Assembly (NCBI GenBank): GCA_021789935.1
Contig: JAJYIR010000003.1
Location: forward strand, 1-64,000
DNA length: 64,000 nucleotides
Origin: Nitrospirota bacterium
GTDB lineage: Bacteria > Nitrospirota > Thermodesulfovibrionia > Thermodesulfovibrionales > JdFR-88
Direction of reading: 5' to 3'
This document shows positions 29,924 through 50,679 of the stretch, one piece after another. Under the pieces are notes generated by a model. The model was not told the DNA's origin, did not search any database, and worked only from the letters and a program-made list of their open reading frames with translations. A program made the position numbers and the translations under genes. The stretch's first letter is position 1, and every line of letters begins with the position of its first letter.

Positions 29924-32248
29924 ATGGAAACGAATAGGGAAATAGGGCTGAGGGAAGCCGGGGAATTTCTACAGGCCTTTGTGTGGGCCGCCCCGGACGC
30001 TATTGTCCATATCGACGGAGAGGGCCGGATAATGTTCTGGAACAGGGCCGCCGAGCAATTGTTCGGTTACAGTTCCGCGGAGATACGCGGAAAAGACCTG
30101 CACCTGCTGCTGGCTGCCCCTGAATATCATAATGCCTGCAGCTCCGGGATAAAGATGTTTGCCGAAACCGGGGAAGGACCCGTTATCGGAAATATATTCG
30201 AATCGGTAGCGGTAAAGAAAGACAAGACCCGGGTACAGGTTGAGATTTCCACCACGGCCGTAAAGATAGACGGCAAGTGGCATGCCATCGCCCTGGTCAG
30301 GGACATATCCCAGAGGAAGGCCATCGAACAGAACCTCAGGGAATCCAATATGCTTTTAATGCGCGAGATAAAGAAAAGGGACGAGACCGAGGAGTTCCTT
30401 CGGGAAAGCCAGCGTTTTGTCCAGAGCATCGCCGATCTGAGCCCGAATGTGCATTATATCTACGATTTGGCCGGGCACCAGGTTGTCTACTCCAACCGCG
30501 AGATGCTCAAGATAATGGGCTATGACCCCGCTCAAATAAAGAAGTTCGACAACTGGGCGCTTCTCAAACTTATACACCCGGATGACCTGCCCGCCCTCTC
30601 CCGCATAAAAGAGCGCTTCCTTACGCTTAAGGACGGAGAGATACTGGAGGTCGAATACCGCATGAGAGACTCGCTGGGCCAGTGGCGCTGGCTGATGAGC
30701 CGGGACACGGTATTTACAAGAAATCCGGACGGGTCTCCCTGCCAGATACTTGGCGCGGCGGTGGACGTAACGGCCCAGAAGTCTGTTGAAAAGGCCCTCA
30801 TCGAACGTGAGGAGCGCTTCAGGAAGGTGTTCGAGGAGGGCCCTATCGGGATGGCGATCTCCAGCCTGGACGGACGCTACATAAAGGTAAACCCGGCGCT
30901 GTCCCGCATGCTTGGGTTCACTGAAGAGGAGTTCGTCTCCATGGGCGTGAATGACGTCACCCACCCTGATGACCGGCATCCAAACGCTGACCTCCGCGGA
31001 CTCCTTTTCAAGGGCGAGGTGCCGTTTTTCCAGATGGAAAAACGCTTCATAAGAAAAGACGGCTCCCTGATGTGGGGGAACCTGACGGTATCTCTCGTGC
31101 GGGATGAAAAAGGCGCTCCCTTATACTATATTGGGATGGTCGAGGACATCGAGGCCAGAAAGCAGGCAGAGGAAGATAAGGCGCTCCTTGCCGCGGCGGT
31201 AGAATCCACGGCCGACGCAATGACCGTAACCGGCCTGGACGGAAAGATACAGTATGTGAACGAAAGCTTCGAAAACATCACCGGTATCACAAAAAAAGAG
31301 GCCCTGGGGACAAACATAAAGGACATGGACAGAAAGAATCCCGGGCCGGATTATTTTCACTTCGGGAAGGCCTTCGACGACACCATCAGGACCGGCAGCC
31401 CCTGGACCGGCAGATTCTCCATGACCGGCAAAAACGGCGTTTTGCTCCAGGTGGAAGAGACGATCGCCCCCGTCAGGGACCGTTCAGGCAAGGTAACAAA
31501 CGTTGTGGTCATAGACAGGGACATAACGGAAAAGCTAAGGCTTGAATCCATAGCTGAGGCCGTCAACACCATGGACAACATCGGATATGTGTTCTCAGGC
31601 ATAAGACATGAGATCGGAAACCCGGTGAGTTCCATAAAAATGGCCTTAAGCGTTCTTAAGAACAAGCTGGAAGGGGGCTGCAACAGGGAAGTGGTGGACA
31701 CCTACCTGGACAGGGCAATTTCGGAGCTCGCCAGGATGGAATACCTGCTCAGGATGCTTAAAAGCTTTAATGTCCACGAGTCCCCGGAGCTGAAGGACAT
31801 AAATATGGTCTCTTTCACCAACAACTTCAAGTCCCTCGTTTCGGAGGACTTCAAGAACAAGGGCATATCCGTGGGGGTGTACGTCCAGCCGGAGGCGAAA
31901 TACTGCCGGGCAGACCCCAGGGCGCTTCAGCAGGTCATGCTGAATATCATGACTAACGCGGCCGACGCACTTAAAGACAGGCCGGCCCCGAGGATCGACA
32001 TAAAGATACTGAAGATGGCGGGAAACATCCTTATACATATAGAGGACAACGGTTGCGGCATGACGCCCGATCAGCTAAAAGACGCCTTCAGGCCGTTCTA
32101 CACCACCAAGCCCGAAGGCACGGGGTTGGGGCTCATGCTGGCAAGAAAAATGATGACCAGGATGAATGGCACCGTAGAGATATCCAGCGAGCTGGGCGTG
32201 GGCACTGCCGTAGACATATTCATTCCGGAGGGCACGCATGGAAAATAA
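29924..32248 (+). CDS. PAS-domain sensor histidine kinase
   Basis: 774-residue soluble kinase with four PAS/PAC modules at about 15-130, 150-285, 290-405 and 410-535 (VHIDGEGRIMFWNRAAEQLFGYS; VHYIYDLAGHQVVYSN; LDGRYIKVNPALSRMLGFT; TGLDGKIQYVNESFENITG). The transmitter follows: H-box SGIRHEIGNPVSS (His about 562), N-box NIMTNAADAL, G1 DNGCGM, and G2 GTGLGL. There are no transmembrane segments, so it senses a cytosolic signal. The H-box with HEIGNP and no classic HisKA phospho-site spacing is typical of kinases paired with NtrC-like regulators. It overlaps the activator gene by 11 nt; the two are a cognate pair. Confidence 0.93.
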   Translation: METNREIGLREAGEFLQAFVWAAPDAIVHIDGEGRIMFWNRAAEQLFGYSSAEIRGKDLHLLLAAPEYHNACSSGIKMFAETGEGPVIGNIFESVAVKKDKTRVQVEISTTAVKIDGKWHAIALVRDISQRKAIEQNLRESNMLLMREIKKRDETEEFLRESQRFVQSIADLSPNVHYIYDLAGHQVVYSNREMLKIMGYDPAQIKKFDNWALLKLIHPDDLPALSRIKERFLTLKDGEILEVEYRMRDSLGQWRWLMSRDTVFTRNPDGSPCQILGAAVDVTAQKSVEKALIEREERFRKVFEEGPIGMAISSLDGRYIKVNPALSRMLGFTEEEFVSMGVNDVTHPDDRHPNADLRGLLFKGEVPFFQMEKRFIRKDGSLMWGNLTVSLVRDEKGAPLYYIGMVEDIEARKQAEEDKALLAAAVESTADAMTVTGLDGKIQYVNESFENITGITKKEALGTNIKDMDRKNPGPDYFHFGKAFDDTIRTGSPWTGRFSMTGKNGVLLQVEETIAPVRDRSGKVTNVVVIDRDITEKLRLESIAEAVNTMDNIGYVFSGIRHEIGNPVSSIKMALSVLKNKLEGGCNREVVDTYLDRAISELARMEYLLRMLKSFNVHESPELKDINMVSFTNNFKSLVSEDFKNKGISVGVYVQPEAKYCRADPRALQQVMLNIMTNAADALKDRPAPRIDIKILKMAGNILIHIEDNGCGMTPDQLKDAFRPFYTTKPEGTGLGLMLARKMMTRMNGTVEISSELGVGTAVDIFIPEGTHGK

Positions 32249-33632
32249 TCGCGAAAAAAACAAAAAAATAAGAAAACTGCTCATAATTGATGACGATAAG
32301 ACTTTCTGCCAGAGTCTGAAGGAATACCTGGAGGGGGAATCCATGGAAGTCCGGGTGGCCAATACCGGTGCCGACGGGCTTGCCGCCAGCTCCAGGGGCG
32401 AAACGGACGTGGTGCTGCTGGACCAGAGGCTGCCCGATGTGGAGGGAGATTCGCTCTGCACATCCATCCTGAAATACAACGACCAGACAAAGATCATCTT
32501 CATCACGGCCCACGCAAGCTATGACGGGGCGGTCAAGGCCATGAAATCAGGCGCGTTCAATTACCTCTCAAAGCCCTTCGATCTGGAGGAGATGGACCAC
32601 GCGATAGAGCAGGCAATGAGGACGATAGAGCTTGAAAGGATTGAGCAATTACAGAGATACCACAGCGCCAGGGAAAGCGAAGCTGCCATCCTGATAGGGG
32701 AAGAAGGCGGACTTGCCCCCATCTCGAAGCTCCTTGAGTCGGCCGCCTCCACCGATGCCCCCGTCCTCATCACCGGGGAGACCGGCACCGGCAAAAACGT
32801 GATAGCCAAGGCCATACACTATAAAAGTCACCTGCGCCGCGCGCCTTTCATAAGCATAAACTGCGCGGCTCTTCCTGAAAACCTGATAGAGGCCGAGCTT
32901 TTCGGTTATGAAAAAGGCGCTTTCACCGGGGCCATTTCCGCAAAGAAAAGCATCTTTGAGATGGCCGAGGGCGGCACCCTCCTCCTGGATGAGATAGGTG
33001 AGATGCCCCTGCACCTGCAATCAAAGCTCCTCGGGGTCCTTGAAGACCATAAGATACGCAGGCTGGGCAGCGAACAGGTCAAGACCATAAACGTGCGCAT
33101 CGTGGCCGCCACCGGCAAGGACCTGGAGAAAATGCTCGACACCGGCTTCAGGAAAGACCTCTATTTCCGTTTAAGCGTAATAAGGATCCATGTGCCGACC
33201 CTCCATGAAAGAAAAGAAGACATTCCAGGTCTCTGCAAATACTTCCTGGAGAAGATACCCGGCGGCAGGGAAATGGCTTTCCCGGATTCCGAGATTCAAA
33301 AATGCATGGAATACCGGTGGCCGGGCAATATCAGGGAGCTTAAAAATATCATTGAGCGCGCCGTCATACTTCAGAGGGAATCAGGGGTGCTCAGGCCTTC
33401 CGACATGCTCATGAAACCATCCGGCCCTAAAATCCCGTGCCCTGAACGGGAGCTTGACTTGCCCGCCGGGGAGCTGTTGCCCCTTTCCGAAATGGAAAAA
33501 AACTACATAAGTCACGCCCTCTCCCTCCTCGCGGACAATTACACCAGGACCTCCAAGGCCCTGGGCATCTCCCTTTCTACCCTGAAAAGAAAAGTAAAGG
33601 AATACGGGCTAAAAAGAACCACTGGCTCATAA
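32238..33632 (+). CDS. NtrC-family sigma-54-dependent response regulator
   Basis: 464 residues. Receiver at 12-125 (IIDDDKTF, VVLLDQRLPDVEGD with phospho-Asp near 60, LSKPFDLEE). AAA+ sigma-54 interaction domain at about 150-375: Walker A GETGTGKNV (the usual Ser/Thr is Asn here), GAFTGA loop at about 227, GGTLLLDEIGEMP as Walker B, and RWPGNIRELKN sensor II. The C-terminal Fis-type HTH (about 420-462) has TRTSKALGISLSTLKRKVKEYG. It should activate sigma-54 promoters. One lies 95 bp downstream of its stop, at 33727, the obvious candidate target. Confidence 0.94.
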   Translation: MENNREKNKKIRKLLIIDDDKTFCQSLKEYLEGESMEVRVANTGADGLAASSRGETDVVLLDQRLPDVEGDSLCTSILKYNDQTKIIFITAHASYDGAVKAMKSGAFNYLSKPFDLEEMDHAIEQAMRTIELERIEQLQRYHSARESEAAILIGEEGGLAPISKLLESAASTDAPVLITGETGTGKNVIAKAIHYKSHLRRAPFISINCAALPENLIEAELFGYEKGAFTGAISAKKSIFEMAEGGTLLLDEIGEMPLHLQSKLLGVLEDHKIRRLGSEQVKTINVRIVAATGKDLEKMLDTGFRKDLYFRLSVIRIHVPTLHERKEDIPGLCKYFLEKIPGGREMAFPDSEIQKCMEYRWPGNIRELKNIIERAVILQRESGVLRPSDMLMKPSGPKIPCPERELDLPAGELLPLSEMEKNYISHALSLLADNYTRTSKALGISLSTLKRKVKEYGLKRTTGS

Positions 33633-33726
33633 TGAACTATTCATAAAGTATATTCGCGATTAAACATCCAGCCCTACTCTTAGTTAAGTCCCCGTATTTG
33701 AATCATTTTGTCAATCGTCTTATGCC

Positions 33727-33742
33727 TGGCATCTTCCTTGCA
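33727..33742 (+). promoter_or_regulatory. Sigma-54 (-24/-12) promoter
   Basis: TGGCATCTTCCTTGCA matches the consensus TGGCAC-N5-TTGCA, with one mismatch (T for C at the last base of the -24 block) and the required GG-N10-GC spacing. The predicted start is about 12 bp beyond the GC, near 33752, just before the ATG at 33757. It lies between an NtrC-type activator gene and a receiver-only regulator gene, a position that strongly supports function. Confidence 0.8.
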
Positions 33743-33756
33743 ATATAAAGAACATC

Positions 33757-34224
33757 ATGAACGGGTACACAAAGAAAAAGAATATCCTGCTTGTAGATGA
33801 CGAAAAGGCTTTTCTGTTAAGCCTTTCTGAAGGCTTGATCAGTTGCGAGGAGAACTTCAAAGTCTTCACGGCTGAAAACGGCAGATATGCGCTTGAGGTG
33901 CTCAGGGGCGGCCCCAGGATAGACGTTCTTGTCACTGACCTCAAAATGCCGGAGATGGACGGGTTCGAGCTTCTTCAAAACATCAGCAGGGATTTCCCGG
34001 AGATCAGGGCAATCGTCCTTACAGCTTTCATAACGCCTGATATAGAAGGGCAGATCAGTGCCATCGGCGATTATGTCTGCATGGAGAAGCCTCTGGAATT
34101 TGAAGAACTGAAAGACAGGATTATGGGGATGCTGGATTGCCCTGGGGGGACAGGGAGTTACCTCGGCATCGATTACGCACTTGAAAAAGACGGTCTTCTG
34201 ACCGGTAGATTTCTGGCGTCCTAA
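33757..34224 (+). CDS. Receiver-only response regulator
   Basis: 155 residues. The receiver fold is complete: ILLVDDEKAFLLSL (acidic pair), VLVTDLKMPEMDG (phospho-Asp about residue 61), IVLTAF (Thr), and CMEKPLEFEEL (Lys). After residue 128 there is only a short tail (SYLGIDYALEKDGLLTGRFLAS) with no known output domain. It starts directly behind a sigma-54 promoter with almost no leader and no clear ribosome-binding site. It probably acts as a phosphate sink or a protein-binding regulator in the PAS kinase/NtrC circuit next to it (inference). Confidence 0.9.
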   Translation: MNGYTKKKNILLVDDEKAFLLSLSEGLISCEENFKVFTAENGRYALEVLRGGPRIDVLVTDLKMPEMDGFELLQNISRDFPEIRAIVLTAFITPDIEGQISAIGDYVCMEKPLEFEELKDRIMGMLDCPGGTGSYLGIDYALEKDGLLTGRFLAS

Positions 34225-34252
34225 ACGCCGCACAAAACCAAGGAGGCTTCAG

Positions 34253-34531
34253 ATGAAAGAAACCTATGCAGGGAATTTTGCACTTTTGGAACGCAATGAC
34301 GGGCATCATCGGGGAACAGATTACAGGAAAAGCGTAAAGAGTCTGGCCGAGGCGATAATCCTTCAGTCGATGGAGGATTTCTGGGGCAACGCTTACAAGG
34401 AAGAAAGCATCGAATTTTTCAAGGGGGAAGGTTTCAGGGTCTGCGCCGAGATAGCCGGCATGGGCCATGAAGACCAGTCGAAGGTGCTTGAGATGCTCTC
34501 TCTGAATGGGGAGCAGCCGTTCGCCTACTGA
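34253..34531 (+). CDS. Hypothetical 92-residue protein
   Basis: Not recognised. A small, acidic, probably helical cytosolic protein without signal peptide or membrane segment. Residues 25-60 (SVKSLAEAIILQSMEDFWGNAYKEE) look amphipathic; one Cys near residue 64. AAGGAGG lies 7 nt before the ATG, a strong ribosome-binding site, so it is very likely translated. Third position after the sigma-54 promoter at 33727, between a receiver-only regulator and a two-CW protein, which suggests a role in the same signalling output. Confidence 0.7.
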   Translation: MKETYAGNFALLERNDGHHRGTDYRKSVKSLAEAIILQSMEDFWGNAYKEESIEFFKGEGFRVCAEIAGMGHEDQSKVLEMLSLNGEQPFAY

Positions 34532-34592
34532 TCAGGTAAACAAAAGGGACGCACTATTACATAAAAAACTTCATGGAGGATTTACGGGACTG

Positions 34593-34799
34593 ATGATAAA
34601 GATGAACTGCTGGGACTACAAGAAATGCACAAGGGAATTGAGGAACGGCTGCCCGGCCTATCCAAACGCGGGGCGCGTCTGTTTCGTCGTCGAGGGCACC
34701 AGGTGCGACGGCGGGATGCAGGGCGCGTATGCACAGAAGATACAGGATTGCCGGGGATGCGATTTTTACAGGGGCATGGTACTCACGAAGAGCATATGA
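34593..34799 (+). CDS. Two-CW domain Cys-rich small protein
   Basis: 68 residues from ATG 34593. MNCWDYKKC...GCPAYPNAGRVCF...GTRCDGGMQG...CRGCDFY matches the two-CW domain that also appears fused to receptors and regulators in deltaproteobacteria and related phyla. Cysteines at 6, 12, 20, 30, 38, 53 and 56 suggest a metal (Zn) or Fe-S site; the ligand is unproven. GGAGGA lies 12 nt upstream and GGGAC closer. Last gene of the short sigma-54-controlled row (33757-34799). Confidence 0.8.
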   Translation: MIKMNCWDYKKCTRELRNGCPAYPNAGRVCFVVEGTRCDGGMQGAYAQKIQDCRGCDFYRGMVLTKSI

Positions 34800-34881
34800 C
34801 AGCTGACATGCCCCTGCTCTTCCGTATGTAAGATTTTATAGCCGGAAACAAGAATAAAAAAAAACAAAAACAAAAATAAAA

Positions 34882-34905
34882 AACCTGGTTTGCGCTGCTC
34901 AGGTT
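34882..34905 (-). terminator. Minus-strand terminator-like hairpin in the 34800-35058 gap
   Basis: AACCTG (34882-34887) pairs with CAGGTT (34900-34905). On the minus strand it is followed by TTTTTATTTTTGTTTTTG. No minus-strand gene lies within 1.7 kb upstream, so it may stop antisense transcription, or be chance. Confidence 0.35.
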
Positions 34906-34970
34906 TGCGAAAGGTCCGGCCTGTTTTCAGGTCCCGGGAAGGGGAGCTGTTTTTTCTGTGCGCCAGGCCC

Positions 34971-34999
34971 TTGACGCGCCTGGATGTTTTCAGTACTAT
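34971..34999 (+). promoter_or_regulatory. Sigma-70 promoter of the PA2779/PA2778/TPR operon
   Basis: TTGACG at 34971-34976, 17-bp spacer, TACTAT at 34994-34999; start near 35006, about 50 bases before the ATG at 35059, which has AAGGAGG upstream. Confidence 0.6.
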
Positions 35000-35058
35000 G
35001 TCCTGAAAGGCCGGACAGTCCTTTTATTATTTTTTTCCATGTTCAAGGAGGGTTGGAA

Positions 35059-35448
35059 ATGAGGGTTCTTTTTATGAGGCATATTTCGTGGTATCTTATT
35101 GCCGCAATGTTCGTGATCGGGATAGCACCAAGGGCGGAGGCCAGTTTTTCGCCGTCTGGCGTAATCGCTCTGCCCCACACTGACAGAGCGCAGGATTTAA
35201 ACAGGATACAGCAGACGCTTGAAAACAAGATGGTTGCCGGGAGGCTTGCGGACCTCGGGTTTTCCCAGAAAGACATAAACTCCAGGCTCTCCCAGTTGAG
35301 CGACCAGCAGATCCACCAGCTGGCGCAGAAGCTTGGAAGCCTCAAGGTAGGCGGAGACGGCGTGGGATTCGTGATCGCCCTGCTGGTGGTTGTGATCCTT
35401 GTGATACTGATATTGCAGATGACAGGGCACAAGGTCATTGTAAGATAG
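35059..35448 (+). CDS. PA2779-family exported protein
   Basis: 129 residues. A signal peptide (hydrophobic to about residue 25, ending RAEAS) precedes a short helical domain with the family pattern DLNRIQQTLENKMVAGRLADLGFSQKDINSRLSQLSDQQIHQLAQ. A Gly-rich turn (LKVGGDGVG) and a C-terminal hydrophobic helix (GFVIALLVVVILVILILQM) follow. This is the layout of PA2779-family proteins, which travel with PA2778-type peptidases as here. Function unknown. Start fixed by AAGGAGG 9 nt upstream. Confidence 0.88.
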   Translation: MRVLFMRHISWYLIAAMFVIGIAPRAEASFSPSGVIALPHTDRAQDLNRIQQTLENKMVAGRLADLGFSQKDINSRLSQLSDQQIHQLAQKLGSLKVGGDGVGFVIALLVVVILVILILQMTGHKVIVR

Positions 35449-35461
35449 TCCGGATTTTTTA

Positions 35462-36139
35462 TTGTTGAAAACGGCATTTTCAGTTTTTGTTTTTTCTGAA
35501 CGAACTTCAAGCGGAAAAGCGGGCGCCCCGGGCAGGTTTTCGGGGCGCCCGTCGGCGTTTCTGCTGCCCCCTCTGCTTCTGACATTGCTGCTGTTTTCCT
35601 CCTGTGCAGGCACAACGGGGGGGGCGCGGGCAGGCGGGAACGATTTTGAAAACCCCGTAAGCCGCGTTCTGCGAAAAGTCCCTTTTTACCCCCAGGCGGA
35701 CCACCAGTGCGGCCCCGCATCCATGGCCGAAGTTCTTGATTATTACGGCTCCAAAGCCACCCCGGAATCCATAGCCGCCTCCATATACAGCAAAACGGCA
35801 AAGGGCACCCTTGGCATAGACATGCTCATCTATCCGGGCCGCGCCGGGTTTAAGGCCAGACAGTACAGCGGCAGCAAGAGGGACATCAGGAAAGAGATAG
35901 ACCTGGGACGGCCCCTGATAGTCTTTGTGGACTACGGGTTCTGGGTTTACCAGCGCGGCCATTTCATGGTAGTGGCCGGATACGACTCAAACGGCCCTGT
36001 CGTCCATTCCGTGGATGGGCCCTTTGAGCATATCCCGTGGGATGAGTTCATGGGCCCATGGAATAGGACCGGCCGCTGGACCCTTCTCATCACCCCTGGA
36101 AAAAATAAAAATACACCTGCCGAAAGGGCAAATCAATGA
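35462..36139 (+). CDS. PA2778-family C39-like cysteine peptidase, lipoprotein
   Basis: 225 residues. After a Ser/Arg-rich start comes a hydrophobic stretch ending in the lipobox LLFSSC (Cys about 48). The peptidase C39-like domain follows: catalytic Cys in DHQCGPASMAEVLDYYG, His in RGHFMVVAGYD, and Asp in VVHSVDGP. It probably acts in the periplasm, anchored by lipid. The start codon is unclear: TTG at 35462 gives an unusually long leader before the lipobox and has no ribosome-binding site. In Pseudomonas-type relatives the peptidase often carries TPRs; here these sit in the next gene, which overlaps by 4 nt. Confidence 0.85.
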   Translation: MLKTAFSVFVFSERTSSGKAGAPGRFSGRPSAFLLPPLLLTLLLFSSCAGTTGGARAGGNDFENPVSRVLRKVPFYPQADHQCGPASMAEVLDYYGSKATPESIAASIYSKTAKGTLGIDMLIYPGRAGFKARQYSGSKRDIRKEIDLGRPLIVFVDYGFWVYQRGHFMVVAGYDSNGPVVHSVDGPFEHIPWDEFMGPWNRTGRWTLLITPGKNKNTPAERANQ

Positions 36140-36681
36140 AGAAATACGGACCGGCCGCCAAGCTTGCATGTTTTTTCCTTTTCCTTTTTCTTTTCCTTGC
36201 CCTTTCCGCGTGCTCAGCTTTGCCAAGGATAATCATATTGCACGACGCGCTCACGCCGGAGGAGCACATGAACCTTGGGGTCGCCTATGAGAGGAAGGGC
36301 GAATACGGCCCCGCGATGAAGCAGTACAGGGAAGCCTCAAAAAAACTGCCCGCGGCGTGGGTCTACATGGGGAATGTCTGCTATGAGACAGGCGATATGG
36401 GCAGGGCCGAAAAATATTACAAAAAAGCCATAGACAAGAACAAAAAAGACCCTGACGCCTACAATAACCTGGCCTGGCTCTATTACACGGAGAGGCAAAA
36501 GCTGGACAAGGCCGAAACCCTCGCGGGCAAGGCCGTCCGGTTGAGCACGAGCGACCCCGACAAAGAGGCCACCTATGAAGACACGCTGAACAAGATAAAG
36601 GCCCTTAAGGCGGAGGACGGCAAAAAGATAAAAACGCTTAAAGGGGAACCGGATGCAGGGGCAAAGAAGAACCTGCTATAA
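36136..36681 (+). CDS. TPR-repeat lipoprotein
   Basis: 181 residues. Signal peptide with lipobox LALSAC (Cys about 26), then about three tetratricopeptide repeats: EEHMNLGVAYERKGEYGPAMKQY, AAWVYMGNVCYETGDMGRAEKYY, DAYNNLAWLYYTERQKLDKAE. A Lys-rich tail ends it. ATG overlaps the peptidase stop (ATGA), so the two are co-translated and likely partners at the membrane. It ends 6 nt inside the convergent outer-membrane-factor gene. Confidence 0.87.
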   Translation: MKKYGPAAKLACFFLFLFLFLALSACSALPRIIILHDALTPEEHMNLGVAYERKGEYGPAMKQYREASKKLPAAWVYMGNVCYETGDMGRAEKYYKKAIDKNKKDPDAYNNLAWLYYTERQKLDKAETLAGKAVRLSTSDPDKEATYEDTLNKIKALKAEDGKKIKTLKGEPDAGAKKNLL

Positions 36682-50448: not shown

Positions 50449-50679
50449 GCTGTCACCCTCCTCTAAGCCGGATTTCAACTCCGGACAAAGAAAGAGCAAT
50501 CCTTATGCCAAGCAGCCCATTCAGTCTATAATTGATGAAAAACCGACAACATGCAAAACTTTGTTAAAGAATCACTTCAAGGGTCAGCCCCGGCAATATT
50601 TTCCCGCTATTCGCCATCAAACCGGCAATTTCTTCCCGCCATGACAGGTGTTTTCATCAGTCCTCTCCTGCTCATTTTT

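Follow-up and report, generated by a model that had tools for sequence, protein, structure and literature searches.

A putative self-contained sigma-54 circuit in a Nitrospirota genome, with its promoter set close against the start codon of a receiver gene

On the forward strand of a 64,000-nucleotide stretch of Nitrospirota DNA, here called the window (contig C14 of a 2.47 Mb genome in 60 contigs), a sigma-54-type -24/-12 element, TGGCATCTTCCTTGCA, lies between the gene of an NtrC-type activator and that of a receiver-only protein, whose ATG follows 16 nt after the -12 C. This raises the question of whether the element is a true promoter, whether it forms a circuit of its own with the neighbouring activator, and how the receiver gene would be transcribed and translated from it. 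The features of the locus are the following (coordinates of the window):

29924–32248, + strand: PAS-domain sensor histidine kinase (HisKA and HATPase_c)
32238–33632, + strand: NtrC-type response regulator (receiver, AAA+ domain with GAFTGA, Fis-type HTH)
33606–33620, no strand assigned: putative enhancer copy 1, GGGCTAAAAAGAACC, within the final codons of the activator gene
33624–33638, no strand assigned: putative enhancer copy 2, GGCTCATAATGAACT, holding the activator TAA stop (33630–33632)
33638–33652, no strand assigned: possible third, weak enhancer half-site (TTCA at 33640)
33727–33742, + strand: sigma-54 promoter TGGCATCTTCCTTGCA (-24/-12)
33752–33757, + strand: predicted transcription start (spacing rule)
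33757–34224, + strand: receiver-only protein, 155 aa, lacking a Shine-Dalgarno (SD) sequence
34240–34246, + strand: AAGGAGG Shine-Dalgarno of the 92-aa gene
34253–34531, + strand: 92-aa helical protein of a Nitrospirota family
34593–34799, + strand: two-CW domain Cys-rich protein

The sensor kinase was assigned by Pfam (PAS_9; HisKA, 7e-8; HATPase_c, 8.3e-25), with its phosphorylation histidine in RHEIGNP. The regulator matched Response_reg (9.7e-27), Sigma54_activat (PF00158, 1.6e-63) and HTH_8 (1.1e-5), with Walker A GETGTGK at residue 180 and GAFTGA at residue 227; its best NCBIfam match was AtoC (373 bits), and it remained under the equivalog cut-offs of AtoC (373.4 against 714 bits), NtrC (352.3 against 558.6) and PrsR (339.6 against 502.6). 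The receiver-only protein (Response_reg, PF00072, 1.6e-19) keeps its phosphorylation residues, DDE at 14–16, D61, T89 and K111. The last protein matched the two-CW family NF045718 with 58 bits (cut-off 35), its second CW reading CF, and has orthologs in L088–L092; its gene is preceded by GGAGG at 34575–34579, and we prefer the start at 34593 over that at 34506. A literature search for "two-CW domain" returned no paper. After the operon, a PA2779-family membrane protein, a PA2778-type C39 peptidase and a TPR protein (34984–36681) follow in an order that is syntenic in L089–L092, which suggests a longer functional neighbourhood. Between the two, 34800–35060 holds an A-rich stretch and then, 5' of the PA2779-family gene, a strongly folding segment (34895–35040, MFE -49.2 kcal/mol), with no Rfam match and no simple terminator on the + strand.

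Transcription from sigma-54 promoters is silent without an ATP-driven activator. TGGCATCTTCCTTGCA departs from TGGCAYRN4TTGCW by one mismatch (C for R), keeps the GG-N10-GC spacing exactly and begins 94 nt after the end of the activator ORF, in agreement with the preliminary description, which had called it a near-perfect sigma-54 site following a GAFTGA-bearing activator. The motif alone was dropped as evidence for a promoter: with up to one mismatch it occurs four times in the window against 2.29 expected, and 17 of 100 shuffles reach at least four. The picture differs at genome scale, where the scan proposed earlier was carried out: TGGCAN6TTGCW matched 26 times in the genome of the window and its reversed control three times, and TGGCAYN5TTGCW matched 182 times against 28 in the 12 genomes of the family. 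The genome carries rpoN (PF04552, E=1.3e-61, 207.6 bits, cut-off 22.8), on whose presence the preliminary description had made its reading depend; sigma-54-like sites are thus overrepresented in a genome that bears rpoN. A scan for sigma-70 promoters gave no excess (3 found, 2.2 expected), and the Rfam search matched only one tRNA there, so that no known riboswitch lies between the genes.

Conservation of the site was followed by a receiver search over 101 genomes; every genome has some receiver, and the best hits alone are informative. Eighteen regions were fetched around high-scoring hits and, together with the window, gave 19 orthologous loci of one Nitrospirota order. A promoter-like site, defined by at least 6 of 8 matching positions beyond the GG and GC, stands directly before the receiver gene in 16 of the 18 fetched loci as well as in the window (17/19), and is absent only in L102 and L103, where the receiver gene directly follows the kinase. 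In the alignment the element is kept while the flanking intergenic DNA diverges. The regulator is found directly upstream of the receiver in 14 of the 19 loci and is interrupted in L096; it lies 3 kb upstream in L095 and was not seen within 5.5 kb in L097 and L099, the promoter being still present in all of the last three. In L097 (1906–5173) and L099, HEAT-repeat and HD-domain genes take the place of kinase and regulator before a gene for a receiver-DUF4388-Roadblock protein. Further receiver paralogs lie in G001, G009, G011 and G023; the check covered three non-syntenic ones of the family (L006, L007 and L008), which had no promoter before the receiver. The kinase, regulator, receiver, 92-aa and two-CW genes are contiguous in the window and in L088, L089, L090, L091 and L092, so that the co-conservation proposed as a check was indeed found; L093 breaks off inside the 92-aa gene, and L101 and L104 hold the receiver and 92-aa genes without the two-CW gene.

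The search for enhancer repeats upstream of 33727, also proposed earlier, revealed tandem palindromes, predicted to be bound by the regulator, that span the activator's stop codon, with the consensus GGNCTAAAATGAACC-N3-GGTTCAAAATGAACC-ATTCATAATG in nine aligned loci. In the window, copy 1 matches at 9 of 12 arm positions and aligns with CTAAAATGAACC of the relatives, copy 2 matches at 10 of 12 (shuffle p 0.003), and the possible third half-site, aligned by eye with the relatives' ATTCATAATG, is 14 bp from copy 2. Perfect copies of GGTTCAAAATGAACC occur in L089 and L091. The best match reached p ≤ 0.05 against dinucleotide shuffles in 12 of the 19 loci, these p-values being descriptive since the motif was read off the same loci; no significant match was obtained in L096, L098, L099, L100 and L105 despite a good promoter, nor in L102 and L103, which have no promoter. 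In a more independent test, GGTTCAAAATGAACC was sought across the 12 family genomes: allowing up to one mismatch gives three places (G005, G007 and G009), all at this locus, and two mismatches give 36 further places, G008 and G010 contributing the two that lie at this locus. The reversed control gives 25 places at up to two mismatches. The copy in the window differs from the perfect palindrome at three positions and is hence absent from this list. When up to 200 bp upstream of 145 sigma-54-like sites were scanned, only three scored at least 10/12, all at this locus. Since the matches with at most one mismatch are confined to this locus, the regulator seems dedicated to one promoter. A looser pattern, GGNTCANNNTGANCC, gave 80 places with one mismatch against 18 for its control and was dropped, the control containing CTAG-like words, which bacteria avoid. 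Conservation and enhancer together raise TGGCATCTTCCTTGCA above chance as a candidate promoter, and the adjacent activator, enhancer repeats, rpoN, co-conserved genes and locus-restricted palindrome all support the earlier suggestion of a self-contained circuit, which by its sequence looks to have an activator dedicated to this one promoter.

The most interesting part of the locus is the distance of about 5 nt between the predicted transcription start and the ATG. The receiver ATG at 33757 lies at C+16, counted from the C of the -12 element, and is the only in-frame start after the promoter; if transcription began at C+12 (33753), the predicted leader would be 4 nt, consistent with the distance of about 5 nt predicted before, and the spacing recurs in the family. 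All 17 promoter loci have an in-frame start 13–19 nt after the -12 C, with predicted leaders of 1–7 nt under the same rule; in 8 of them, window included, this is the only in-frame start beyond C+10, whereas in the other 9 a later one exists and the near start is not forced. Sigma-54 starts in C. jejuni are reported to scatter 8–13 nt after the tTGCTt motif (PMC3847290), and because of such scatter transcription may begin on the A of the ATG itself. Among the 45 window genes of at least 150 aa, 39 show an SD-like word ahead of a plausible start, and the receiver gene is one of the six that have none. The window holds a second strong sigma-54 site, TGGCATAAGGATTGCT (50495–50510, - strand), which lies 48 nt before an SD-led ORF beginning MSIQSIGSIQQTM and is a leadered counterpart.

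The same arrangement recurs at other sigma-54-like sites of the family. A total of 145 of the 182 sites were read (18 from the window's genome, 27 from loci already fetched and 100 newly fetched), the 37 left out being mostly in the genomes listed last. For 119 sites an ORF of 80 aa or longer has an ATG between C+5 and C+160, and the first such ATG was taken as start; it falls at C+13, C+14 or C+15 in 30 of the 119 (8, 11 and 11), where a uniform spread would put 2.3 in the three positions; C+12, C+16 and C+17 hold 1, 2 and 2. An earlier histogram of listed ATGs (145 rows), in which some sites were counted more than once, agreed in tendency, with 49 at gaps 10–14, but also had 13 at gap 7. The close spacing is coupled to a lack of SD sequences: a 4-nt SD-like word precedes none of the 35 genes at C+12 to C+18, against 55 of the 73 at C+25 or more, with 37 sites fitting neither class. 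Many of the 35 close-set sites are orthologous and amount to eight families, not to 35 independent cases: LpxC (9), FlgF/G-like (8), a 108–130-aa family (5), NusG-like (4), a TPR protein (3), this receiver (3), PEP-CTERM (2) and radical SAM (1). In Pfam runs on one or two members of each, the domain begins at residue 4 in LpxC, 5 in the FlgF/G-like and 7 in the NusG-like proteins; for this reason the close starts of LpxC and of the rod protein (residues 4 and 5) are very likely true. The PEP-CTERM and radical SAM members may use a later start.

Close spacing is preferred most strongly in the family of the window, more weakly in the order, and not beyond it. An ATG was found 11–13 nt after TTGCW 42 times in the 12 family genomes, 236 times in 137 other genomes of the order and 79 times in 90 genomes from other classes of the phylum, against 4, 119 and 79 times, respectively, at 21–23 nt, a gap that is not a neutral control as real gene starts fall there too. 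The spacing peak and SD absence in the family predict a lineage-specific class of leaderless sigma-54 mRNAs, of which this locus would be one member. We lean towards the stricter view that a class of sigma-54 mRNAs in one Nitrospirota order, above all in the window's family, is truly leaderless, with the -12 element 13–15 nt before the AUG and the A as +1. If so, a promoter gated by an ATP-driven activator would control lpxC, a flagellar rod gene, a gene for a NusG-like antiterminator and this receiver gene, all being translated without a Shine-Dalgarno sequence; the most tightly gated mode of bacterial transcription would be joined to the simplest translation start, leaving no 5' UTR for post-transcriptional control. 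As a practical rule, a -24/-12 element could mark the true start codon in this lineage. The lpxC gene of the window's genome (L064:1530–2408) has TGGCACGCTCATTGCA 15 nt before its ATG, nine LpxC genes of the family sample doing likewise, and sigma-54 control of the essential LpxC would be notable by itself. The 108–130-aa family (MxxVLFCTHDPVLAKSLYGMLRQEGY...; L306:229–618, L062), also behind close-set sites in several genomes, had no Pfam match and by eye resembles a degenerate receiver.

Two other explanations of the site and its spacing were weighed. The promoter may be real and yet the receiver mRNA come mainly by read-through or from another upstream promoter, the spacing then reflecting compact genome design without leaderless translation; the activator-promoter gap of only 94 nt would allow this, and no terminator-like site was found on the + strand between the activator and receiver genes. 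The peak at 13–15 nt, on the contrary, is narrow, lineage-specific and coupled to the missing SD (0/35), and a read-through mRNA without an SD explains initiation no better, so that we regard this explanation as distinctly unlikely. That TGGCATCTTCCTTGCA is a chance GG-N10-GC match without promoter function would fit the non-significant motif count in the window, and is very improbable for a site that is conserved amid diverged intergenic DNA, adjoins both a sigma-54 activator and an enhancer, and is lost where the receiver directly follows the kinase (L102 and L103).

A further alternative accepts both promoter and dedicated circuit and concerns the role of the receiver, which the preliminary description had proposed to be a phosphate sink. 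As a feedback competitor for the PAS kinase the protein would have what it needs, namely all phosphorylation residues and a place in an operon controlled by the kinase's partner. The orthologs of sister families point elsewhere: the L094 product is Response_reg + DUF4388 + Robl_LC7 by Pfam, and it belongs to a cluster of about 400-aa proteins that holds the receiver gene of nine of the 19 loci, eight of which were assigned by sequence clustering. At seven of the nine it stands behind the same promoter, the other two being L102 and L103. Because these orthologs fuse the receiver to DUF4388 (PATAN) and to Roadblock, an output protein with the receiver as its input domain is the more likely picture; as judged from these fusions, the window's receiver is most likely itself the output protein, and the sink, while possible, is unlikely. 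In seven loci the receiver-DUF4388-Roadblock gene is followed by that of a conserved 205-aa protein (MTEGKILDIAHISFLDMIKVMITLS..., L094:8350–8964), with no Pfam match for the L094 member and no NCBIfam match for those of L094 and L097.

The 92-aa protein, previously taken for an orphan, is not one: the family has the core motif LAEAIILQSxEDLW..ESxEFFxGEGFxxCAEIAGM, and homologs were found in 39 of the 101 relatives and at 68 loci of public genomes, the latter all with Nitrospirota titles except one, "Bacterium BMS3Bbin08", whose title names no phylum. Its AlphaFold2 model consists of helices only (mean pLDDT 81.4). No credible match resulted from sequence comparison with the PDB (best E 1.8), Foldseek gave nothing under E 0.001, and a PHROGs search returned nothing useful. 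The best VIA-align score (Z 6.4) is within the range expected for helical bundles, and the fold was therefore left unassigned; the missing match is no evidence for a new fold. The family as a general partner of receivers holds only in part, an upstream receiver gene being present at 13 of the 68 named loci. A paralog exists in the same genome (C24:64898–65068), and some relatives stand alone behind a sigma-54-like site of their own (L167, L180 and L185).

Returning to the preferred reading, the locus quite probably encodes a self-contained two-component circuit with a leaderless or near-leaderless first cistron and the receiver as likely output protein. The PAS kinase would phosphorylate the NtrC-type regulator, which would bind the tandem palindromic enhancers that cover the 3'-terminal part of its own gene with the stop codon, some 90–120 bp upstream of the promoter, and through its GAFTGA AAA+ domain remodel sigma-54 RNA polymerase at 33727–33742. 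The predicted transcription start coincides with the receiver ATG or lies no more than about 5 nt from it, and the first cistron would be translated with little or no leader, those of the 92-aa and two-CW proteins via their Shine-Dalgarno sites. The receiver would then act in place of the receiver-DUF4388-Roadblock product that the same promoter serves in sister families, and the spacing would be part of a lineage class of sigma-54 promoters built against the start codon. The locus would thus be a compact circuit, its enhancer encoded within the gene of its activator.

Compared with DUF4388 and Roadblock/LC7 regulators, whose receiver, DUF4388 and Robl_LC7 domains are all found in the sister-family orthologs, the window protein is a receiver alone, followed by the 92-aa helical and two-CW proteins. 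With NtrC/AtoC/ZraR-type systems the locus shares the -24/-12 element, a palindromic enhancer at about -120, an adjacent kinase and a GAFTGA activator with receiver and Fis-type HTH. It differs from them in an enhancer that lies within the activator gene's 3' end, stop codon included, in an activator far under the NCBIfam equivalog cut-offs, and in a promoter that abuts the start codon with a leader predicted to be almost absent.

A leaderless sigma-54 class is not described among the literature matches listed, from a search that did not extend to subscription journals and supplements. In the accessible excerpts, papers on transcription starts in S. meliloti, Caulobacter and Leptospira report leaderless mRNAs, and two of them sigma-54 sites, with no link drawn between the two (PMC3616915, PMC4117421, PMC5243855); single leaderless sigma-54 cases may be contained in such tables, for example of S. 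meliloti or Bradyrhizobium. The sigma-54 regulon survey of Francke et al. 2011 sorts promoter-to-start distances into 100-nt bins (PMC3162934), too coarse for a 13–15 nt class to be visible; its link of sigma-54 to LPS and flagellar genes agrees with the LpxC and FlgF/G-like promoters reported here. Leaderless genes have so far been tied to sigma-70-type -10 boxes adjoining the ORF, as in the consulted parts of reports on Deinococcus-Thermus (-10 box beside the ORF, PMC12340547), Bradyrhizobium (extended -10, PMC4842269) and Campylobacter (sigma-70, PMC3847290). The present locus resembles these genes in having the promoter against the start codon, no SD and an AUG start, and differs from them, as far as those excerpts describe them, in that its promoter is of the sigma-54 -24/-12 type, which needs an ATP-driven activator.
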